Both the position numbers and the translations under genes were made by a program. Shown one piece after another: positions 6,269-32,120 of a stretch of DNA of 32,120 bases (within the stretch, counting starts at the first letter, position 1; each line of letters starts with the position of its first letter). The stretch is from Verrucomicrobiales bacterium. Lineage in GTDB: Bacteria; Verrucomicrobiota; Verrucomicrobiia; Limisphaerales; UBA9464. The stretch lies in NCBI GenBank assembly GCA_005805505.1, contig SYMJ01000058.1:1-32120 (forward strand), in the 5' to 3' direction. A model generated the notes under the pieces. It searched no databases. It was not told the origin of the DNA and worked only from the letters and a program-made list of their open reading frames with translations.

Positions 6269-7411
6269 TCACTTCAAAGACACGAACCGCAGGCACACTG
6301 GGGAACCAACCTCCCAGTGTTGCTCCGTCGGTGTAAGATGGCCCGTGGTCAGATCGATGCGAAACGAGCGGATGTCGTTCGAGCTTTGTCCTGCGGCCAG
6401 CAGGAAATGGCCTGACGGATCGATGACAAAGTTTCGGGGGGTCTGCCCGCCGATCTTGCGGACTTCCACCGGGGTCAGGGCCCCAGTGGTGAGGTCTCGG
6501 GAAAAAACGGCGATGGAATCGTGTCCCCGGTTTGAGCCGAAGACAAATTTCCCGGAAGGGTGAACCCTCACCTCAGCCGTGGACACCCCGGTCATGTCTG
6601 TTCCGGCCGGAACCGTAGGAACCGATCCCACTTCGGAGAGTCTGCCAGTAGCGGGTTCGTGCCGGAAAGCGGTCACCGTGCAGAGTATCTCGTTGATGAC
6701 GTAGGCGTGATGACCGTCGGGGCTGAAAGCGAAGTGACGGGGCCCGCTTCCCGGCTTCAAGCGGGTGTCGAGGTGGGGCTTGGCAGCGGTGAGTCCTCGG
6801 GCCGATTCAAAAACGTAGGCGTGGATGCGGTCCGTGCCCAGGTCGGCGACATAGGCGAAGCGATTGTCCGGCGAAAGATTTACCGAGTGGGCGTGCGGAT
6901 CCTTTTGTCGGGCCGGGTTCATGCTCCCGCCGGTGTGCTGCGAGAGGAAGGTATGTCGGGTGAGGCCGCCATCGGGTTGGATGGGCAGAGATAACACGCT
7001 GCCACCGCCATAATTGGCCACCAGGACGTGATTTCCGGTGGCGTCCACGGACAGATGGCACGGGCTGTTACCCATCGTGGATTGCTGGTTCAGTTCACGC
7101 AGTTTGCCCGTGGCGGTGTCGATGGCGAAGGCACTGACCGACCCACCGGGCTTGCCCTGCCATTGGTCAGTTTCATTGACCGCATACAGAAAACGCCCGT
7201 TGGGATGGATTGCCAGGAAGCTAGGGTTGGCAGACTTGGCTGCTAGGCCGAGGGGTTCGGCGGTTCCGGTGCCATCGTCATAGCGAAAGGCGTAAATACC
7301 CTCGCTCTTCGGGCCGGTGTAGGTGCCGACGTAGAGCAAGTGTTTGGCGGCGGAGAGAGGTAGGGCGGCCAAGGCGGCGGCAGTCATGAGCGCATGGGTC
7401 AAGGAAGCCAT
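6269..7411 (-). CDS. Lactonase-family beta-propeller protein (6-phosphogluconolactonase-like)
   Basis: 380 residues from ATG 7411, chosen because the protein then begins with a signal-like segment (TAAALAALPLSA, 10-21). A GTG at 7495 would add 28 residues and overlap the upstream gene. The mature part starts HLLYVGTYTG and shows repeated propeller strands such as PSFLAIHPNGRFLYAVNE, HLSVDATGNHVLVANYGGG and SVNLSPDNRFAYVADLGTD, matching PF10282. Some members hydrolyse 6-phosphogluconolactone; others cleave other lactones or are uncharacterised. The signal peptide argues against a cytosolic pentose-phosphate role. It is the last gene of a minus-strand run. Confidence 0.85.
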   Translation of the reverse strand: MASLTHALMTAAALAALPLSAAKHLLYVGTYTGPKSEGIYAFRYDDGTGTAEPLGLAAKSANPSFLAIHPNGRFLYAVNETDQWQGKPGGSVSAFAIDTATGKLRELNQQSTMGNSPCHLSVDATGNHVLVANYGGGSVLSLPIQPDGGLTRHTFLSQHTGGSMNPARQKDPHAHSVNLSPDNRFAYVADLGTDRIHAYVFESARGLTAAKPHLDTRLKPGSGPRHFAFSPDGHHAYVINEILCTVTAFRHEPATGRLSEVGSVPTVPAGTDMTGVSTAEVRVHPSGKFVFGSNRGHDSIAVFSRDLTTGALTPVEVRKIGGQTPRNFVIDPSGHFLLAAGQSSNDIRSFRIDLTTGHLTPTEQHWEVGSPVCLRFVSLK

Positions 7412-7491
7412 CCCGTGATTGAACCTCAACGGCGCCGGCAGTCCAGTCCAAGTGTGTTGGGGTGGACTTCCGTGCTCCGGTGGAAGGCGAT

Positions 7492-7881
7492 TCACTCGAG
7501 CACGTCGGAACTATTCAGTGGGGCGGGGGATAGGCCGAGTCCGACAATGCTGCAGGCCCGGATAATCGGCAGCCCCAAGCGCTGAGCCTCTGCGACCACC
7601 TCCAGACTATCAGTACCGGGATTAAGCCAGAGTTCGTCACAGCCCCTTTGGGCGATGGTCGGCAAAATTCCGAGCAAAATGAGGGGCGGCAAGTAGGCGC
7701 TGATTACCTCGGGGCGGCCCGGGAGAGAGGCAATGTCGCGGTAGGCGGGATGGCCGGCGATGTGCGGTTCCTTGGGGTTCACTGGCCAGACCGTGTAGCC
7801 CTGAAGGGCGTAGGCGAGGACGGCCTTGTGTCCAAATTTGGCAGGGTCTGCGGAGGCTCCGAGGATGGCGGCGGTCTTCAT
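7492..7881 (-). CDS. CoA-binding domain protein (YccU-type)
   Basis: 129 residues, a single Rossmann-like CoA-binding domain (PF13380). It begins with AAILGASADPAKFGHKAV (4-21) and continues with GYTVWPVNPKE (28-38), GHPAYRDIASLP and ELWLNPGTDS. Known relatives bind CoA, but their cellular role is not settled. The usual C-terminal DRC motif is replaced by RACSIVG. Its ATG overlaps the stop of the MEKHLA gene by ATGA, indicating coupling. Confidence 0.82.
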   Translation of the reverse strand: MKTAAILGASADPAKFGHKAVLAYALQGYTVWPVNPKEPHIAGHPAYRDIASLPGRPEVISAYLPPLILLGILPTIAQRGCDELWLNPGTDSLEVVAEAQRLGLPIIRACSIVGLGLSPAPLNSSDVLE

Positions 7882-8414: not shown

Positions 8415-9767
8415 TTAAGGTTTGGCCGTGGCGCGCAGGTCCAGGCACACCAGTCGGTCTTCGCTGCGTAGGTACAGGAGGCCGCCTGAAAGGACAGGTC
8501 CGGCCCAGCAGGGATAATGTAGCGAGGGGACCTGCCAGCGTCCGAGTTCTTCACAACGTCCCGGGTTCGGTTGGAAGAGCCCGAGCAAGCCGCCTTCGCC
8601 CAGAGCCAGGAGTCGGCCCTCGGCCAGAATGAAGGAGCCGCGGCCGAAGACTGGGGGCTGTTCGGCACTGTGGGGCGGCCAGCGTTCGCTGCGCTCCCAG
8701 GCCATCGTGCCGGTCTCGTACTCCACACAGCGCAAGACTGCGTCGGGCTCATTGCGTCCGCTGAAGCCATAGAGATGAGCCCCGACTCGGATGGGTTGAC
8801 TCCAGTGCATCTCCAATCCCAGACCGGACCAGATTTCGGTGAAGTTCGTAGCCCCGGGGCTTCCGCGCAGCAGCACCGATCCGGAACGGTAATAGGCGCT
8901 GGAGATGAGTACATCGTTCCCGATCACCAAGGGGGTCATGGCATTGACTGAATCATCGGCTCGAGCGCGGAACCAGCGGCTGAAGAGTACTTGGCCGTTG
9001 TTGGGATCGAGCACCGTGAGTCCCTGTCGGGTGAGGGCGTGAACCACACGTCGTCCGTGAATTTCTGAGGCGATCAGGGAGGCGTAGCTGGCGGTCTTCT
9101 CCCAGCGCCGCCACTCGACGGTTCGCTCACCGGGCCATCCGAGCATGGGTTGGCCAGTCCAATTCTTCTCGCCCACCGATTCCCAGAGCGTTTTCCCCGT
9201 CTTCGGATCGACCGCGATCACCGTGGCGTTGGGTTGTCCGCCCGCCATGATCAGCAGCCTCCCGCCTTCCATCAACGGGGTGCTGCCGACGCCGAAGAAA
9301 GCCCCAGGAATCTCAAACTCCGCGGCCGTGTTGCGCTGCCAGAGCTGTTTGCCGGTCTCGGCCTCGAGGCAGCTCAAAAGCCCTTCAGCCCCAAAGGTGT
9401 ACACCCGGTTGTCATGAAGGAGTGGTGTGCAGCGAGGTCCGTTATTGTAGCCATAGGGGTCGCGGTAGGAGCTCGGCTGCGTGTGCTTCCAGATCGGGGT
9501 GCCTGTTTGGGCGTCCCAAGCCTCGGTGAGTTCCTGGTTTCCCTGGCGGTGAAAGAGAAAGAGTCGACCCTGCGCGATCGATGGCGCCGCATATCCGGTG
9601 CCGATGGCCTTGTCCCAGCGTACTGGAGGGCCATTGCTAGGAATGCGGGGCAGGAGGCCGCTCTCGGAGCTGGTGGCATTGAGCCGTGGTCCCAAGAGTC
9701 GGGGCCAGTCTTCCGCCAGGAGTGGGCTGACCCACAGGCACAACGCGAGGACGAGTCGGTGAAGCAC
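8415..9767 (-). CDS. Secreted PQQ-like (Trp-docking) beta-propeller protein
   Basis: 450 residues from a GTG at 9767, which places a signal peptide (LHRLVLALCLWVSPLLA) at the N-terminus. Longer in-frame extensions run into the hydrolase gene and are not supported. The mature start EDWPRLLGPRLNATS is the usual opening of planctomycete/verrucomicrobial PQQ-like proteins. Propeller repeats follow: AWDAQTGTPIWKH, LEAETGKQLWQ, VDPKTGKTLWESVG and VEYETGTMAWE. Such proteins are BamB/quinoprotein-like in fold but mostly lack proven cofactor or enzyme function. It probably acts in the periplasm. No Shine-Dalgarno is seen at the chosen start. Confidence 0.78.
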   Translation of the reverse strand: MLHRLVLALCLWVSPLLAEDWPRLLGPRLNATSSESGLLPRIPSNGPPVRWDKAIGTGYAAPSIAQGRLFLFHRQGNQELTEAWDAQTGTPIWKHTQPSSYRDPYGYNNGPRCTPLLHDNRVYTFGAEGLLSCLEAETGKQLWQRNTAAEFEIPGAFFGVGSTPLMEGGRLLIMAGGQPNATVIAVDPKTGKTLWESVGEKNWTGQPMLGWPGERTVEWRRWEKTASYASLIASEIHGRRVVHALTRQGLTVLDPNNGQVLFSRWFRARADDSVNAMTPLVIGNDVLISSAYYRSGSVLLRGSPGATNFTEIWSGLGLEMHWSQPIRVGAHLYGFSGRNEPDAVLRCVEYETGTMAWERSERWPPHSAEQPPVFGRGSFILAEGRLLALGEGGLLGLFQPNPGRCEELGRWQVPSLHYPCWAGPVLSGGLLYLRSEDRLVCLDLRATAKP

Positions 9768-24120: not shown

Positions 24121-24504
24121 ATGATTCAAACGCTGTTCAACCAATCCAACTATGTGGTCACCAAGAAACTCTTGGATGCCACGGTGCTGCGCCATCAGGC
24201 CATTGCCGGCAATTTGGCCAATGTTGAGACGCCGAACTACAAGCGAATCGATGTGGCACCGTCGTTCCAGGCGGAGTTGTCCAATGCGGTGAAGGCCAAC
24301 GATCCGGGTCAGATCGCCAATATTCCGGTCCCGACCCTTTCGGTCGATCCGATGGCCGTTGCCTCCAATCGCGACGGCAATTCCGTCAATTTGGAGCAGG
24401 AAATGTTGGCCATGAATGAGAACAGCTTGGCCCACACCCTAGAAGCCCAACTCATCACCGGTTCCATGCTCAAGCTGAGAATGGCCATCACGGGTCGTAG
24501 CTGA
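24121..24504 (+). CDS. flgB: Flagellar basal-body rod protein FlgB
   Basis: 127 residues. Proximal rod subunit, exported by the flagellar type III system. The N-terminal rod signature RHQAIAGNLANVETPNYKR is clear, and the C-terminal helix carries ENSLAHTLEAQLITGSMLKLRMAI. Its length matches the family. It is first in the flagellar operon, with the best ribosome site of the window (GGAGG) and a sigma-54-like promoter upstream. Confidence 0.95.
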   Translation: MIQTLFNQSNYVVTKKLLDATVLRHQAIAGNLANVETPNYKRIDVAPSFQAELSNAVKANDPGQIANIPVPTLSVDPMAVASNRDGNSVNLEQEMLAMNENSLAHTLEAQLITGSMLKLRMAITGRS

Positions 24505-24524
24505 ACCTTCGGACTAACACCCCC

Positions 24525-24947
24525 ATGATCGAACTCATCCCCAGCATTCAAAGCACCCGCTCCGCGTTGGATGCCGAACGGACCCGGATAGAGATCGTCT
24601 CCCAGAATCTGGCCAATGCCAATGTCACCCGCTCCGTCGATGGGCAGCCCTACAAGCGCAAGCAGGTGGTCTTCGAGACTCTAGTCAACAATGCCGGGAC
24701 CAATGCCAACAGTGGTTCCTCCATACGGGTGAGCCGTGTTGAATCCGATACTCGCCCCTTCCGTGAGGTTTTTAAACCGGATCATCCCGACGCCGATGCT
24801 CGGGGCTACGTCCGGTATCCGAACGTCAATGTCCACGAGGAGATGGTCGATCTCATCGCCTCCTCTCGGGCGTTTGAGGCGAACATCGCCGTGGTCAAGA
24901 ACGCCCGACAACTGGCCCAACAGGCCATGTCTATCGGCAAGCGCTGA
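24525..24947 (+). CDS. flgC: Flagellar basal-body rod protein FlgC
   Basis: 140 residues. Proximal rod subunit paired with FlgB. N-terminal STRSALDAERTRIEIVSQNL plus ANANVTRS gives the rod motif, and the C-terminal block YPNVNVHEEMVDLIASSRAF plus EANIAVVKNA is characteristic. It lies 20 nt after flgB; no Shine-Dalgarno is evident. Confidence 0.95.
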   Translation: MIELIPSIQSTRSALDAERTRIEIVSQNLANANVTRSVDGQPYKRKQVVFETLVNNAGTNANSGSSIRVSRVESDTRPFREVFKPDHPDADARGYVRYPNVNVHEEMVDLIASSRAFEANIAVVKNARQLAQQAMSIGKR

Positions 24948-24967
24948 GCCTCCACTGACACACTGCC

Positions 24968-25423
24968 ATGGAAGCGCTATCCGCACTCCGAATGTTCAAT
25001 CCGGCCGCCCTCCGGGAGTCGCCCCTCGGCAAGGCCGGGATGGAGTCTCTGCAGAAAGCGGGGATGGGAGACTTGGGAAAACTCATTCCCGACTCGGAGA
25101 TGGGAAAGCTACAGCCGTTCAACAAGGCATTCCCGGACGCGATGCCGCTGCCCACGGGGGTGAATCCGAGTGGTATCCCCTCGCTGGGGAGAGTCTCGGG
25201 GCGAGATGCCTTTGCCGACACCCTGGGTCGGTTTGTGGGCGAAGTGGCTGACAAGCAAGTGGCCGCTGGAGATTCGGTTCGCGGCTTGGTCACTCAGCAG
25301 GGAGTGCCTCTGCACCAAGCCATGATCGCCATGGAGGAAGCCAGTGTCTCTTTCCAGTTGATGGTCGAGGTGCGCAACAAGCTCCTCGAATCGTACCAAG
25401 AATTGATGCGGATGCAGGTCTGA
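24968..25423 (+). CDS. fliE: Flagellar hook-basal body protein FliE, with long N-terminal extension
   Basis: 151 residues against about 100-105 usual. FliE joins the MS ring to the rod. The conserved part starts near residue 75 (FADTLGRFVGEVADKQ) and ends VPLHQAMIAMEEASVSFQLM and VRNKLLESYQELMRMQV. The first 70 residues (rich in Gly, Met, Pro) are not part of the family core. The start at 24968 is the first ATG after the flgC stop; an internal start could shorten the extension. Confidence 0.92.
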   Translation: MEALSALRMFNPAALRESPLGKAGMESLQKAGMGDLGKLIPDSEMGKLQPFNKAFPDAMPLPTGVNPSGIPSLGRVSGRDAFADTLGRFVGEVADKQVAAGDSVRGLVTQQGVPLHQAMIAMEEASVSFQLMVEVRNKLLESYQELMRMQV

Positions 25424-25442
25424 GGATTAAGGGCCCCAAGTG

Positions 25443-27095
25443 ATGAACAACAGTTTCCAAGAACTCCTGCAGCAATTGGCTTCCGTCTGGAAGGAGATCG
25501 GCATCAACCAGCGAGTCTCGATCGTCCTCGCCGGATTGGTCGTCTTGCTCGGTTTGAGCGGCATCGCGGTTTGGTCGAGCCGTGAAGACTACACCGTTCT
25601 CTTTGGCAACCTTGCCGAGGCCGAGGCTTCCAAGGTGATCAATGCGCTCGATGAGAGCAAAATTCCTTACAAGGTCCGGGGCGGCGGTAGCATCTCGGTG
25701 CCCGCCGACAAGGTTCATTCCCTGCGCATCCAATTGGCTGGTAAGGGGATTCCCGGTGGCGGTACGACGGGGTTTTCTCTCTTCGATAAGCCTAATTTCG
25801 GCATTTCGGACTTTGTGCAGCGGGTCAATTACCTGCGGGCCATCCAGGGAGAATTGTCCCAGACCATTTCACGGGTCGATGGCATCGAATCCGCCCAGGT
25901 GATGCTCGTAATGCCCGAGAACCGTCTACTGGTGGAGTATCAGAAGAAACCCAGCGCCTCGGTGTTCCTGAAGCTGCGGGGTAACGTGCCCATCCCTGCC
26001 GCGACGGTGAATGCTATCCGCTTCCTCGTTGCCAATGCGGTCGAAGGGCTCAATCCGGAAGGGGTCTCTATCACCGACAACATCGGCAACCTCCTGACCG
26101 AGGCCTTTGATAATGATCCTATCACTGGGGCTACTTCGTCGCAGCTCAAGCAACGCCGCGAATACGAAAACTATTTAGCCAAAAAGGTAGAGTCGTTTAT
26201 GGCCCCCAACGTCGGGGGGTCGGCGCGGGTTATGGCGCGCGTGTCGGTCGACCTAGACTACACGAGCCTGCAGCGGAAGGAGACCAAGTTTGACCCGGAG
26301 AGTCAGGTGAAGCGCACGGAAACGATCACCGACGAGCGCATTGACAACACGAGCTCGGCCCTAGCGGGCGCGGTCGGCGCGCCGGGTGCGGCGACCAATG
26401 CCAATACGGACACCAACAGTCCGGCCGGCACGTCTCCGACGACCAAGAACAACACGAGCAAAAAAGTCACCCAGAACAATTACGAGATCAACGAGATTAC
26501 CACGACGCAGAGTCAAATCCCAGGTTCTACTAAGCGCCTTTCGGCCGCGGTCTTCATCCCCATCGAGTACACTGTGAGCGGGAGTAATCGTGTGGCCGTG
26601 CCCCGCAGCCCGGTTGAGATGATGAAGATCCGGTCTGCCGTCCGGTCTGCCTTGGGCATTGTCACAAATAGCGTGGACGGAAGGATTGACGAACTGTCGG
26701 TCGAAGAAATCGCCTTCAATGATCAACCCTCCCTCGAGCTGACCCAGCGTCTTGAGAAGAGTGAGCGCCAGCGTCTTTGGATCGATATTGCGCGTGATTC
26801 AGTTTTTCCGCTCTTGGGTGTCGGAGTGCTGGCCTTGTTCTGGCGGATCTTCCAGAAGACTAGCATCGATGAAATCCCCATCGGAATCCCACTCGGAGCC
26901 GCCTCCGGGGATGGCGGATCTCAGATGAATAGCTTCGCCTCCGGCCTCAGGGCCGGCCCCGCCAGCGAACCGGATGAAGTTCAACCCTTCGTGATGACTG
27001 CGGACATGATGAACCAGCTCATGAAGGAAAATCCCGCCAATATGACCCACGCGCTTCGCACCTGGATGACCCGCGGCGCCGAGAAATCGAAGTAA
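25443..27095 (+). CDS. fliF: Flagellar MS-ring protein FliF
   Basis: 550 residues from ATG 25443 (a GTG sits one codon upstream). Forms the membrane-embedded MS ring that holds the motor switch and export gate. A first membrane helix lies at about 26-46 (SIVLAGLVVLLGLSGIAVW). It is followed by ring-building motifs with YTVLFGNLAEAEASKVINAL, GTTGFSLFDKPNFGISDF and DGIESAQVMLVMPE. A Thr/Asn/Ser-rich loop lies near 300-345 and a second helix at about 455-473. The C-terminal tail (NPANMTHALRTWM) is the FliG-binding segment. Confidence 0.96.
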   Translation: MNNSFQELLQQLASVWKEIGINQRVSIVLAGLVVLLGLSGIAVWSSREDYTVLFGNLAEAEASKVINALDESKIPYKVRGGGSISVPADKVHSLRIQLAGKGIPGGGTTGFSLFDKPNFGISDFVQRVNYLRAIQGELSQTISRVDGIESAQVMLVMPENRLLVEYQKKPSASVFLKLRGNVPIPAATVNAIRFLVANAVEGLNPEGVSITDNIGNLLTEAFDNDPITGATSSQLKQRREYENYLAKKVESFMAPNVGGSARVMARVSVDLDYTSLQRKETKFDPESQVKRTETITDERIDNTSSALAGAVGAPGAATNANTDTNSPAGTSPTTKNNTSKKVTQNNYEINEITTTQSQIPGSTKRLSAAVFIPIEYTVSGSNRVAVPRSPVEMMKIRSAVRSALGIVTNSVDGRIDELSVEEIAFNDQPSLELTQRLEKSERQRLWIDIARDSVFPLLGVGVLALFWRIFQKTSIDEIPIGIPLGAASGDGGSQMNSFASGLRAGPASEPDEVQPFVMTADMMNQLMKENPANMTHALRTWMTRGAEKSK

Positions 27096-27101
27096 TTCGC
27101 T

Positions 27102-28127
27102 ATGGCTAATCCGATTCCCGAGATTCTGGCCTCGAGCCCTGCCGATTTTGCCCGTCTGACACGGACACAAAAGATCGCCTTGCTCCTGGTGGTTCTGGGA
27201 GAAGAGGCGGCGATCTCCTTTCTTCGAGGGCTTCAGCCCGACGAGTTGGAGGCGATCTGCGCTGAGATGGCCAAGGTGGGGATGCTCTCCATTGAGATGC
27301 AGAATACCGTCCTGAAGGAGTTTACAGATGTGGCCATCCACGCCAGCACCTCTCTGCGTGGCGGTTTAGATTTCACCCAATCGATGTTGGAAAAGGCCCT
27401 GGGCCTCTACAAGGCGGCCACGGTGATCACTCGGGTGCTGCCCACCCGCACGCCGGTCTCCTCGATGACGCAAATTGTCGATCTAGATGCCCGGCAAATT
27501 TTTAATCTGCTCAAGCTTGAACAGCCGCAGATGATCTCACTAGTCCTCTCCTACCTGCCACCCGAAAAGGCTTCCCAGTTATTGATCATGCTCCGGAGCG
27601 ATTTGCGGGATCAGGTCATTGAGCGACTGGCTACTCTGTCTGCGACCCCTATCGAAATTGTCGAGAAGGTGGTCGAACAGCTCAATCGCAAGCTCGGTAA
27701 CCAGCACACGCGCGCCCTCAATCAAACCGGGGGCCTGAAGAGCGCTGCCAACTTGCTGAACTCGCTCGATAAAAACATGACCAAGGCGCTCCTGATGAAC
27801 ATCGAGGAACGCAATCCGGAGCTCGGTCAGCAAATACGCCAGAAGATGTTCACCTTTGAGGATGTGGCCACTTTGGATACTCCGGTTCTCCAGCGGGTGC
27901 TGCGCGAGGTGGATTTGCGCGATCTGGCGGTGGCTCTCAAGACGGCGAGCGATTCACTCAAGGGAGCGCTTCTCAGTGCGGTGTCCAAGCGTGCCGCCGA
28001 AACGGTGCAAGAAGAGATGAGCTTCATGGGGCCGCTCAAGCTGCGCGATATCGAGGCAGCCCAGATGCGCATCATCGAACTGGTCCGCAAATCCGAGGCC
28101 GACAACGAAGGGCTTAGCTCTTCCTGA
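27102..28127 (+). CDS. fliG: Flagellar motor switch protein FliG
   Basis: 341 residues. Part of the C ring, binding FliF at its N-terminus and interacting with the stator at its C-terminus. Landmarks are QKIALLLVVLGEEAAISFLR (N-domain), LEQPQMISLVLSYLPPEKAS (the EHPQR-like middle domain) and the C-terminal torque helix region FTFEDVATLDTPVLQRVLRE followed by VALKTA. The closing GPLKLRDIEAAQMRI block is typical. It starts 6 nt after fliF. FliM and FliN are not in the window. Confidence 0.95.
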   Translation: MANPIPEILASSPADFARLTRTQKIALLLVVLGEEAAISFLRGLQPDELEAICAEMAKVGMLSIEMQNTVLKEFTDVAIHASTSLRGGLDFTQSMLEKALGLYKAATVITRVLPTRTPVSSMTQIVDLDARQIFNLLKLEQPQMISLVLSYLPPEKASQLLIMLRSDLRDQVIERLATLSATPIEIVEKVVEQLNRKLGNQHTRALNQTGGLKSAANLLNSLDKNMTKALLMNIEERNPELGQQIRQKMFTFEDVATLDTPVLQRVLREVDLRDLAVALKTASDSLKGALLSAVSKRAAETVQEEMSFMGPLKLRDIEAAQMRIIELVRKSEADNEGLSSS

Positions 28128-28129
28128 TT

Positions 28130-28720
28130 ATGCAACTCAAACCCAATCCGATCCCGATCGCTTTTATCGAAGCCCTCCGCGAGGTCCAAGTTATCAAGAT
28201 CTCGCTCTCGGAATTGGAGCGCAAATGGTGTCTGCGTGAGCAGGAGGCCTATGCGCGGGGGGTCGCCGATGGTGAAAGAGCTCTGAGCGAGCAACTCGTT
28301 CAGCAGCGCGCCGATTTGCGCCATCTCCAGAATCGGCTCTTCGTCCAGCTCGAGAACACGATTCCCCAGGTGGTGAGAGACTGCGAGCAGGCGCTCATCG
28401 GCATCGCATGGGAGACGGCTCGCAAAGTCGTCAACTGCATCGAGATCACTCCCAGCATGGTTGAGGCTGCCTTAGAGGAGGCGCTGGTTTCGCTCCGCCA
28501 GACGGGTCGGGTTCGGGTGCAGCTCCATGCCGAAGACCTTGCGCTCCTTGAGGGGGTCAACAGCCCGGTATTGCTCAAGGAGCTTGGAGGCGAGCGCATC
28601 CGCTTCGAAGTGTCCTCGGAGGTCGGGCGCGGGGGCTGCTTGGTGTACACCGATTTCGGGACAGTGGATGCCCGCCGAGAGGTGAAACTCGAACTGCTGC
28701 GGCAATCGATGGAATCATGA
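28130..28720 (+). CDS. fliH: Flagellar export ATPase regulator FliH
   Basis: 196 residues. Binds the export ATPase FliI and links it to the export gate and C ring. An amphipathic helical N-half (SELERKWCLREQEAYARGVA, then DGERALSEQL) precedes the C-domain with VVRDCEQALIGIAWETARKV and SEVGRGGCLVYTDFGTVDAR, as in FliH/YscL proteins. It starts 2 nt after fliG and overlaps fliI by ATGA. Confidence 0.9.
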   Translation: MQLKPNPIPIAFIEALREVQVIKISLSELERKWCLREQEAYARGVADGERALSEQLVQQRADLRHLQNRLFVQLENTIPQVVRDCEQALIGIAWETARKVVNCIEITPSMVEAALEEALVSLRQTGRVRVQLHAEDLALLEGVNSPVLLKELGGERIRFEVSSEVGRGGCLVYTDFGTVDARREVKLELLRQSMES

Positions 28721-30063
28721 ACTCTTCAGGCACATCGCCGGGTCAACGATTGGGAGGCATACTGGAGCGTGTGCGGAGTACTCGTGTGGTCGAGAATCGT
28801 GGACGGGTCGTTCAACTCATCGGCTTGGTGATTGAGAGCGAGGGACCTCTTTGCGCCGTGGGAGAACTTTGTCGGATCGAGGGTGGCCACAAGAAGGGCG
28901 ACGCGTTGGCCGAAGTGGTGGGCTTTCGTCAGGGTCGGGTGCTTCTCATGCCCTTGGCGGAGACCCATGGTATTCATCCCGGGTCCGAGGTCGTCGCCCT
29001 GGGGCACCCCTTGGAGGTTCCCGTGGGGGCAGATTTGCTGGGTCGCGTTCTCAATGGATTGGGGGAACCCATCGATGCGCTCCCACCCGTGAGGCCGGTG
29101 TTCCGGGCTCCGTGCATGGCGCCACCACCTCACCCCTTGCAGCGTCGCCGGATCCGCGAGGTCTTTGGTACCGGCATCAAGGCGCTCGATACGCTGATCC
29201 CCGTCGGCCGAGGGCAGCGTCTGGGAATCTTCGCTGGATCAGGCGTCGGAAAATCAACGCTCCTAGGCATGATGGCGGCCCGAGCTGAGGCAGACGTCAA
29301 TGTCATCGCTTTGATCGGTGAGCGGGGTCGTGAGGTGCGCGAATTCTTGGAGAAGGATCTCTCGGAAGAGGGTCGTGCCAAATCGGTGATCGTGGTGGCG
29401 ACCTCCAATGAGCCGGCATTGATGCGCCTTAAGGGGGCCTACTCGGCCATGGCCATCGCCGAGTATTTTCGGGACCAGGGAAAATCGGTCCTTCTGATGA
29501 TGGATTCGGTGACCCGTTTTGCCATGGCCCAGCGGGAGATCGGACTGGCGGTAGGTGAGCCACCCGCCACCCGGGGTTATACACCCAGCGTCTTTGCTCT
29601 CCTGCCTCAGTTGCTTGAACGGGCCGGCTCAGGACAGAGCGGGGCCATCACCGCGTTCTTCACGGTCTTGGTTGAGGGAGACGACATGAACGAGCCGGTG
29701 GCGGACACGGTTCGCGGCATCCTCGACGGGCATATCGTGCTCGACCGCATGCTGGCTCAACAGAACCACTATCCGGCCATTGATGTGCTTCAGAGCATCA
29801 GCCGTCTTACCCGGGATTTATGCTCCGAGGAGCAGCTCCGCCTGGCAGGGCAGGCCCGCGAGCATCTCTCTAACTACAAGCGCAACGCGGACTTGATCAG
29901 CCTGGGCGCCTACGCGGCCGGCTCTAATCCAGCCATTGATGCCGCCATTCGTCTGAAGGAACCCCTGGAGACCTTCCTCCGGCAGGGGGTCGACCAGGGT
30001 GTGACTCCCGCCCAGGCCTGGGCGGGTCTTCAATCGGCCGTGAACGGAGGAAAATCTTTGTGA
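28717..30063 (+). CDS. fliI: Flagellum-specific export ATPase FliI
   Basis: 448 residues. An F1-beta-like hexameric ATPase that drives unfolding and export of flagellar subunits. Walker A GSGVGKST is at 174-181. GERGREVREFLE follows near 201-212. Walker B ends in MMDSVTRFAMAQRE with Asp263, and the PATRGYTPSVFALLPQLLER block is fully conserved. Length and all key residues look intact, so this is a functional-looking gene despite lesions further downstream. Confidence 0.97.
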   Translation: MNSSGTSPGQRLGGILERVRSTRVVENRGRVVQLIGLVIESEGPLCAVGELCRIEGGHKKGDALAEVVGFRQGRVLLMPLAETHGIHPGSEVVALGHPLEVPVGADLLGRVLNGLGEPIDALPPVRPVFRAPCMAPPPHPLQRRRIREVFGTGIKALDTLIPVGRGQRLGIFAGSGVGKSTLLGMMAARAEADVNVIALIGERGREVREFLEKDLSEEGRAKSVIVVATSNEPALMRLKGAYSAMAIAEYFRDQGKSVLLMMDSVTRFAMAQREIGLAVGEPPATRGYTPSVFALLPQLLERAGSGQSGAITAFFTVLVEGDDMNEPVADTVRGILDGHIVLDRMLAQQNHYPAIDVLQSISRLTRDLCSEEQLRLAGQAREHLSNYKRNADLISLGAYAAGSNPAIDAAIRLKEPLETFLRQGVDQGVTPAQAWAGLQSAVNGGKSL

Positions 30064-30097
30064 GCACCTTGATTTCAAAACATCCACCCCGGTCCCG

Positions 30098-30568
30098 ATG
30101 AAACGATTTCGATCCCGAGTCACAGCCCTCCGAGAGCTTCGACAACGTCGCGAAGAGGACACCCTCCAAGTCCACGCTCGTGCAGTTCGGAATCGTCAAG
30201 CGGCCGAAGCGCAGTTTCAGGAGTGCCTCGGAGCCTTGTTGCGTCACCAGCAGGAAGTGCAGACCGATTTGATGCGCGGGTGTCCAGCTTCTCGACTCGT
30301 ACAACAGGACGGGTACCGACTGTTGCTGGAACAGCGGTGCCACGAGAGCCGTCAGCAGGTGGTTGAGGCGACTTCTGCGGCCGCAGCGTCACTTCAGGCA
30401 GTCCTGCTAAGCCGTCGTGACCGTGAATTGGTTGAGAAATTCTGCGCTAAGGAGTTGGTCGACCACCAACGTGAACAGTTGAAGGAAGATCAGAAGAATC
30501 TTGATGAAATGGCCTTGCGACGACGGCCGGTCGATTTCGCCGCCCTTGGAACCTCTCAAAACTTGTGA
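30098..30568 (+). CDS. fliJ: Flagellar export chaperone FliJ
   Basis: 156 residues. A coiled-coil chaperone that bridges FliI and the export gate. It opens MKRFRSRVTALRELRQRREE, a typical FliJ start, and stays helical and charged throughout, ending in EQLKEDQKNLDEMALRR. Position after fliI supports the call. Its stop overlaps the GTG of the next gene (GTGA). Confidence 0.88.
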   Translation: MKRFRSRVTALRELRQRREEDTLQVHARAVRNRQAAEAQFQECLGALLRHQQEVQTDLMRGCPASRLVQQDGYRLLLEQRCHESRQQVVEATSAAAASLQAVLLSRRDRELVEKFCAKELVDHQREQLKEDQKNLDEMALRRRPVDFAALGTSQNL

Positions 30569-30864
30569 AATCCATCGCTATTCCGCTCGTCGGATCATTG
30601 ATTGGCGCTCTGCTGTATCTGGCTGTCACCGCCGCCTTAATTCTCAAGGGATACAAGCCCCCCGCGCCGTCAACCGTATCCAAGGCTGCAAAGGTCAAGG
30701 AATCAGCCGGTATTTCAGGGTCGCCTCTCGCTGAAAAAACGGCAGATGAACTCAATGGGAGAACCCCTTCCTGGAAATACTACAACACGGACGTCGAGTT
30801 CCTCATCGAATACCTCAAGCAGACGAGTAATTCATTCCGGATTCGTCAGAAGGATTTGGACTAG
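30565..30864 (+). CDS. MotE-like protein, N-terminal part, ending at an in-frame TAG
   Basis: 99 residues from a GTG overlapping the fliJ stop. An N-terminal membrane helix (about 5-27, IPLVGSLIGALLYLAVTAALIL) is followed by a Pro/Lys/Ala-rich stretch and the start of a coiled coil (VEFLIEYLKQTSNSFRIRQK). The frame stops at TAG (30862-30864) but the same frame continues open for 115 codons with the rest of the coiled coil and the MgtE-N-like domain. The expected whole protein of about 215 residues resembles MotE, the stator chaperone often found near fliJ. Readthrough, a nonsense mutation or two separate products are possible. Confidence 0.65.
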   Translation: MKSIAIPLVGSLIGALLYLAVTAALILKGYKPPAPSTVSKAAKVKESAGISGSPLAEKTADELNGRTPSWKYYNTDVEFLIEYLKQTSNSFRIRQKDLD

Positions 30865-31209
30865 TTGGGTCAACGACTGACAGCCGAACGCGCTGAACTC
30901 GCGTCCGTGACCCAGTCGGTGGCCCGTCTGCGCGACGACATTGATCGTCAAGTGATCCGGATTCAGGACGATGAAGCCATCAATCTAAAGCGATTGGCCA
31001 AGACTTACGCGGGTATGGAGCCTTCCAGTGTCGCGAAGGTTTTTGTGGAGTTGGACGAAAAGCTCGTCGTGAAGGTCATGAGCCAGATGAAGGACGATCA
31101 AAATGCGTCCATTCTCGATGCCTTGGCCAAGACCAATGCCCAAGGAGCAAAACTAGCAGCGGCCTTGTCGGACAAACTGCGGTTGGTGCCCACCGGCAAA
31201 AAGTCATGA
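30865..31209 (+). CDS. MotE-like protein, C-terminal part (MgtE-N-like), directly after the TAG
   Basis: 114 residues if begun at the TTG that immediately follows the TAG; AGAAGGA lies 10 nt before it (30848-30854), so reinitiation is conceivable. A heptad-like region (RLTAERAELASVTQSVARL) continues the coiled coil of the upstream part. Then YAGMEPSSVAKVFVELDEKL and VMSQMKDDQNASILDALA resemble the MgtE N-terminal domain found at the end of MotE proteins. Without the membrane helix it would be cytosolic. The stop overlaps the next gene (ATGA). Confidence 0.65.
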   Translation: MGQRLTAERAELASVTQSVARLRDDIDRQVIRIQDDEAINLKRLAKTYAGMEPSSVAKVFVELDEKLVVKVMSQMKDDQNASILDALAKTNAQGAKLAAALSDKLRLVPTGKKS

Positions 31210-31904
31210 CCACTCTCAGTCCGCTGGGGGCGGAGACGCTGTTGCTTCCAACCCTAGCTGCGGTGGGAGGAGTCGGAGCTCTGGTGGTTCCAGAACGCAC
31301 GGATGGAGAGTCTTTGTTTGCGTCGATGGTCACGGGAGCACTGACATCGGTGCACGGTGATGGAGTTCTCCAGCCGCCCTCATCCGCTAGCGAAGCGGCG
31401 TTGGTAGTGCTTCCGGTCCAGGCATCGGAGTCTTCCGGGGGAGGGGCTAATAAGGTGGCTCATCCTGCGATGGTCATCGAGAAAACGGTGCCACCAGAAC
31501 AGGGATTTAGGGCTGTGCAATTACTCGTGGGTTCGGACTTGCGTCCGACGCCCGCCTCGTCCCATAGGCCTCACTGGGGTCTGCGACGGGGTGACTGTGC
31601 AACCCCGAAGGTTGCGGACGATTCCGAAGCGTCTCTCTGGGCGAATCGAGAACCCAAGGAGGGTCTCAACGATGAAGTGTCCTCCGGTGAGTCGAGTCTG
31701 GGGATCTCCGAGAATGGAGGGATGCCCACTTGGGCCCTAGTTCCAGGGGTGTTACCCCCTTGGGTTCCCCCTGTGATGACTCCGGTGGCGGAGTCCTCGC
31801 TTGCAACGGGTTTTTCAGAGGGTTCGGAACCTTCAGGCCCGCCCTTGTTCAACGACAATTATTCCTCCCCTTTGGCGACAATTAAAATTCCTCACTTGAG
31901 GTGA
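31206..31904 (+). pseudogene. Truncated FliK-position gene (probable hook-length control fragment)
   Basis: 232-residue frame, of which about 213 lie before the likely IS end. The N-terminus has ESLFASMVTGAL and a long low-complexity Ser/Pro/Gly/Glu region, as FliK N-terminal halves often do, and the place after fliJ-motE is where fliK usually sits. The conserved C-terminal hook domain of FliK is absent. The last residues (from about DNYSSPLATIKIPHLR) appear to be encoded by IS sequence. Identification as FliK rests on position and composition, not on a conserved motif. Confidence 0.5.
31853..31892 (+). repeat. Short direct repeat at the IS left end
   Basis: Two copies of CGACAATTA, spaced 23 bp, both leading into TTCCTC with a 3-nt length difference. 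They are candidate transposase binding sites. Confidence 0.55.
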
Positions 31905-31974
31905 GGGGTTTTTGGTTCGTCCGGCCAAGCCGGACTATGGGCGATTGCCCATTGGTCTTGTGGCTTGCCGCAAG
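31888..31974 (+). promoter_or_regulatory. Four consecutive hairpins before the transposase ATG
   Basis: Hairpin 1: CCTCAC/GTGAGG (31890-31906), followed by GGTTTTT. Hairpin 2: GTCCGGC/GCCGGAC with a 3-nt loop (31919-31935). Hairpin 3: ATGGGC/GCCCAT with loop GATT (31937-31952). Hairpin 4: CTTGTGG/CCGCAAG with loop CTTG (31957-31974), ending at the base before the ATG. Such a leader would limit read-in transcription and translation of the transposase. A structured RNA with another role cannot be excluded. Confidence 0.55.
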
Positions 31975-32120
31975 ATGATTACTGGAAAGCAATGCGGGCG
32001 GCTCCGAAGGGAGTTTGCCCGCACCCACAACATGAAGCTGAGTGCCATGAAAGCTGGGGTCGATCGCAAGACGGCCCGGAAGTATCTGCAAACCCAAGCG
32101 TCACCGGAACAACTCCAAAA
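31975..32120 (+). CDS. IS21-like transposase (IstA), 5' part only
   Basis: 48 codons before the window end. The N-terminal helix-turn-helix region reads CGRLRREFARTHNMKLSAMK and AGVDRKTARKYLQTQASPEQ. The block AMKAGxDRKTARKY, followed by a short acidic/proline segment, is what I associate with one subgroup of IS21 transposases. The catalytic DDE domain would lie beyond the window. The start ATG touches the preceding hairpin; no Shine-Dalgarno is free. Confidence 0.7.
   Translation, partial: MITGKQCGRLRREFARTHNMKLSAMKAGVDRKTARKYLQTQASPEQLQ

Follow-up and report, generated by a model that had tools for sequence, protein, structure and literature searches.

A probable recent nonsense mutation in a motE-like E-ring gene of a Verrucomicrobiales bacterium with two flagellar systems

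What has become of a flagellar motor gene whose frame is cut by one stop codon and then continues without a shift? The question is raised by a 32,120-nt stretch of DNA from a Verrucomicrobiales bacterium (here called the window), in which a first-pass annotation had noticed a motE-like frame split by an in-frame TAG with a TTG right behind it. This description was correct down to the positions: the plus strand at 30565–31209 holds a single frame of 99 codons, TAG (30862–30864), 114 codons and TGA, and TTG (30865) immediately follows the TAG. The GTG start at 30565 overlaps the stop codon of fliJ and the TGA overlaps the ATG of fliK at 31206; the gene order is flgB-flgC-fliE-fliF-fliG-fliH-fliI-fliJ-motE-fliK (Table 1). 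Shine-Dalgarno matches are weak at most starts of the cluster (24121–31209). The draft genome comprises 247 contigs at 79.6% completeness. We consider it likely that a recent Glu-to-TAG nonsense mutation inactivated an E-ring gene that belongs to one of the two flagellar systems present, in a cluster that also carries an IS21 lesion in fliK and a lesion caused by another element in flgE.

Table 1. Positions of the features discussed; coordinates refer to the window unless a locus is named.
Feature	Coordinates	Strand	Remarks
motE/flgY-like E-ring gene, 5' part	30565..30864	+	GTG start, membrane helix (residues 5-27), linker, first portion of the long helix; ends with TAG
In-frame TAG	30862..30864	+	GAG (Glu) in G004, G017, G010, G014 and other same-genus relatives
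motE/flgY-like gene, 3' part	30865..31209	+	Remainder of the long helix and MgtE_N/FliG-like head (read-through residues 153-206)
Shine-Dalgarno-like CAGAAGGA and TTG codon	30848..30867	+	Ordinary coding sequence, common to close relatives without the stop
flgB, flgC, fliE, fliF, fliG, fliH, fliI, fliJ	24121..30568	+	Remaining flagellar cluster; frames intact, dN/dS low
fliK, first ~213 codons	31206..31846	+	876 aa in G004; cut by IS element
IS21-family left end (istA start)	31847..32120	+	Continues to the edge of the contig; other contigs of the genome also have this element end at their edges
Second multi-copy mobile element, end	L101:18213-18351 (G000:C19)		Inserted at ~codon 73 of flgE; Pfam and NCBIfam give no family name

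The motE product belongs to the COG3334 group of flagellar E-ring proteins. This group unites MotE (Sinorhizobium meliloti, Cereibacter sphaeroides), FlbB (Borrelia), FlgY (Campylobacter, Helicobacter) and YlxF (Bacillus), and is described in a 2026 review as the sole component of the periplasmic E-ring, encoded by a gene that often adjoins fliJ and fliK (PMC13023049). Here, too, the gene sits between fliJ and fliK with overlapping starts and stops, and the read-through protein is predicted to share with the known members an N-terminal membrane helix, a long coiled-coil helix and a C-terminal head of the ARM-like MgtE_N (PF03448) or FliG type. Unlike in those proteins, the frame here is broken by a TAG midway along the long helix, and the family profile scores lie under the Pfam and NCBIfam cut-offs. 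The 3' part matched MgtE_N with an E value of 0.00039, a hit that does not reach the curated cut-off; the read-through protein matched the FlbB collar model weakly, and a search for sequence relatives in the PDB gave no meaningful match.

A model of the read-through protein, built with eight relatives, predicts a helix at residues 5–27 (low pLDDT), a long helix of 80 residues (70–149) and a head of four short helices (153–206). The long helix crosses residue 100, the site of the TAG, unbroken, in agreement with the earlier remark that the coiled coil passes through the stop. For the read-through model, the top fold match was YlxF of B. subtilis, taken from a FliF-YlxF model (E 0.018); the FliG middle domain and MgtE came next, and no match fell below E 0.001. 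Such matches are weak one by one but agree with each other. Formation of the E-ring is the best-supported role of the family, rather than that of a stator chaperone alone, and by analogy with the homologues it is expected here too. Thus, the label "MotE-like stator chaperone" in the first-pass annotation named the right family and, by keeping to an older view of its role, probably the wrong function. The head should be located in the periplasm, because this is the case suggested by the homologues and because the single N-terminal helix is preceded by lysine. Everything after that helix is expected to be periplasmic, so that the earlier portrayal of the downstream product as cytosolic is probably mistaken.

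An uninterrupted motE was found in 15 of 18 genomes of the same genus and also in further genera and families within the order. The read-through frame is 95, 92, 88 and 89% identical to intact relatives over residues 1–214, and since intact genes in related genomes match the split frame over its full length, its continuity is more than chance. The codon at the TAG site was compared in correctly oriented alignment rows only, and the site was rechecked separately. As the first-pass annotation had proposed, related Verrucomicrobiota were aligned at this position: the residue is Glu (GAG) in close relatives and a sense codon is present in more distant ones, while a stop occurs in none. TAG differs from GAG by one base, and the flanking codons are otherwise conserved. 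The flanking AGAAGGATTTGGAC and the TTG are identical or nearly so in close relatives without the stop; farther out, the Leu codon at the TTG position is CTC or CTG. Relatives in which motE consists of two separate genes, which the first-pass annotation had named as a refutation of its reading, were looked for and not seen, and no relatives of motE were found in viral contigs. A frame break that intact orthologues lack is a feature of pseudogenes, and motE shows it.

Because the frame behind the stop is still close to that of the relatives, the stop is probably recent. The dN/dS ratio of motE is 0.147 in comparison with G004, the closest relative, and this low value, together with those of the neighbouring genes, shows that motE was under selection until recently. 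Among branch-specific changes, counted as a measure of relaxed selection, one nonsynonymous codon was assigned to the source lineage in the 3' part of motE, the counts being small.

The two other lesions of the cluster are insertions. At 638 bp downstream of motE, fliK passes after about codon 213 into a sequence that begins with TGTTCAACGACAATTATT at 31847. G007 has the same sequence, at 92% identity, at the head of an istA gene of the IS21 family (istA/istB); IstA of the best-preserved copy in a relative scores above the NCBIfam cut-off for IS21, and the copy in fliK is represented by only 274 bp in the contig. The flgE gene of this cluster, on contig C19, is present only from about codon 73 onwards, where it is joined to the end of a second element. 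Three other contigs carry copies of this end at 99–100% identity, with flanking DNA that differs from copy to copy, and many copies of the same type of element occur in G010, G014 and G017. The assembly lacks some 2.8 kb that separate the break in fliK from flgE (the rest of fliK, flgD and the flgE start); the three lesions are thus read from separate draft contigs, fliK and motE on one and flgE on C19, and may not all be carried by one cell. By a rough estimate, some 18 other ends of the two elements in 3.6 Mb would by chance lead to about 0.05 per 10-kb cluster; two were seen.

Most of the genomes nearest to the source genome contain two flhA genes. In the source genome, a second flagellar system is found on contigs C57 and C8, with an flhA of its own and with open genes in the parts seen; its MotE-like protein is 22% identical to the MotE of an intact relative. 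An internal repeat of the second system's fliK lies where C57 and C8 break (L074:1-523, L078:8587-8968). The flhA gene of the first system is divided between two contigs with a gap of 8 bases. An IS insertion was considered here and rejected, as neither contig end carries IS sequence, and the interruption was treated as an assembly break. In other members of the genus, an in-frame TAA takes the place of the relatives' Glu codon in flhA of G017 (GIIN*QQARAR; L079:6622-7923, G017:C207), and in G008 no flhA was detectable and the flagellin match contains an in-frame TAG (G008:C182:5693-6100).

Translation across the TAG into a full-length protein, by a suppressor tRNA or by recoding, would be compatible with the conserved frame 3' of the stop and with the rarity of TAG as a terminator, which ends none of 25 genes in the window and two of 63 long ORFs in the source genome. 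TAG is equally rare in relatives, however (two of 59), and RF1 is present and intact, not lost or changed as recoding might lead one to expect. None of the 26 tRNAs found in this genome of about 80% completeness reads UAG (anticodon CUA), and other conserved genes contain no in-frame TAG. We therefore rejected a recoded TAG or suppressor tRNA, since RF1 is intact, TAG is a rare but ordinary terminator and a CUA tRNA is missing from the set; the amber readthrough considered in the first-pass annotation is extremely improbable. A special RNA structure at the motE stop was also rejected, as the sequence folds no better there than shuffled versions do (z −1.01). More can be said for termination at the TAG followed by a restart at the adjoining TTG, by which two working proteins would be made, one a membrane-bound fragment and the other the soluble head. 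The TTG is preceded by a 5-base Shine-Dalgarno-like match at good spacing, the 3' end of CAGAAGGA lying 9 nt before it. Among the start-like triplets of the cluster, only about 7% have a match of this length; it is longer than that of most real starts, and as an initiation site the TTG is no worse than these. Moreover, starts in the cluster overlap preceding stops, and coupling is therefore probably used. Yet the same Shine-Dalgarno-like stretch and TTG occur in close relatives whose frame is uninterrupted; the restart signal is thus coding sequence that happened to be present and was not built for the stop. With CTC or CTG in its place farther out, TTG is an ordinary Leu codon that more distant relatives do not keep, and no relative has the split form. 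Lacking the membrane helix, the head would stay in the cytoplasm although it is expected in the periplasm, the predicted helix runs on across the site, and fliK downstream is broken. Reinitiation, also put forward in the first-pass annotation, is physically possible, but two working proteins are a very improbable outcome, and it is more doubtful still that the E-ring protein is made in this way with a head that works without its membrane helix.

The main rival is of a technical kind: the TAG may be one wrong base, introduced when this draft metagenome-derived genome was sequenced or assembled, with the gene intact in the living cell. Only one base differs, the rest of motE is conserved and the genome is fragmented; the flhA stop of G017 likewise falls on a Glu codon, as G-to-T errors would produce. 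Against this stands a survey of stops in 61 ORFs (18,229 aligned codons) of the source genome and G004. Five alignments contained a stop, motE among them: two stops lie upstream of the real start (flgB; ORF 6269–7495), one at 8415 falls four codons short of the end of the relative's ORF, and one lies in an ORF that is probably spurious (dN/dS 2.8). motE is thus the only real gene broken mid-frame among the 61 compared ORFs, and the other real genes have no disabling stop. In addition, the same cluster holds two independent mobile-element insertions, and these are not base errors. We regard a base error as unlikely, though it deserves more weight than readthrough or restart.

The motE break is therefore best read as an ordinary case of gene decay, the recent pseudogenisation of a dispensable flagellar cluster, in a lake bacterium with a second flagellar system in reserve. 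Of the options listed in the first-pass annotation, a recent nonsense mutation is the one borne out by GAG in close relatives, by the lack of a stop in any of them and by the fliK and flgE insertions in the same cluster. In its favour are also that the gene is uninterrupted in every same-genus relative in which it was found and that breakage of flagellar genes recurs in the genus (G017, G008). Counting against it, flgB to fliJ, fliL, fliM and most of flhA are open, mostly with low dN/dS; with the rest of the cluster open, decay can be at most very recent. The change of a single codon, the intact gene in relatives, the IS junctions and a second system that is unbroken where seen are observations; the loss of motE function, relaxed selection and the order of lesions are inferred, as follows. 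The Glu codon would have turned into TAG recently, in a cluster whose hook assembly was lost or about to be lost through the insertions in fliK and flgE. Hook formation was probably lost already, and the motE stop would thus have been of little cost, while the second flagellar system would have remained as the first cluster decayed. The N-terminal product would consist of the membrane helix and a stub of the coil, and a product restarted at the TTG would remain in the cytoplasm for want of that helix; in neither case would an E-ring be expected to form.

Flagellar pseudogenes that arise by nonsense mutation and IS insertion are known from bacteria losing a flagellar system, and one nonsense codon and two insertions in one cluster are likewise found here. 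Unlike in those bacteria, a second flagellar system is kept, most genes of the broken cluster are open, which puts its decay at an early stage. Natural losses of the E-ring protein, an old motor part that was identified only recently, inform on how much it is needed. The source genome, G017 and G008 offer a snapshot of a two-system genus of Verrucomicrobiota in which flagellar genes appear to be breaking independently in several lineages, and this genus could show which flagellar system is dispensable and in what order its parts are lost. Between neighbours at 28130–30060, dS in comparison with G004 jumps from 0.37 in fliH to 0.085 in fliI, which suggests recombination between lineages.
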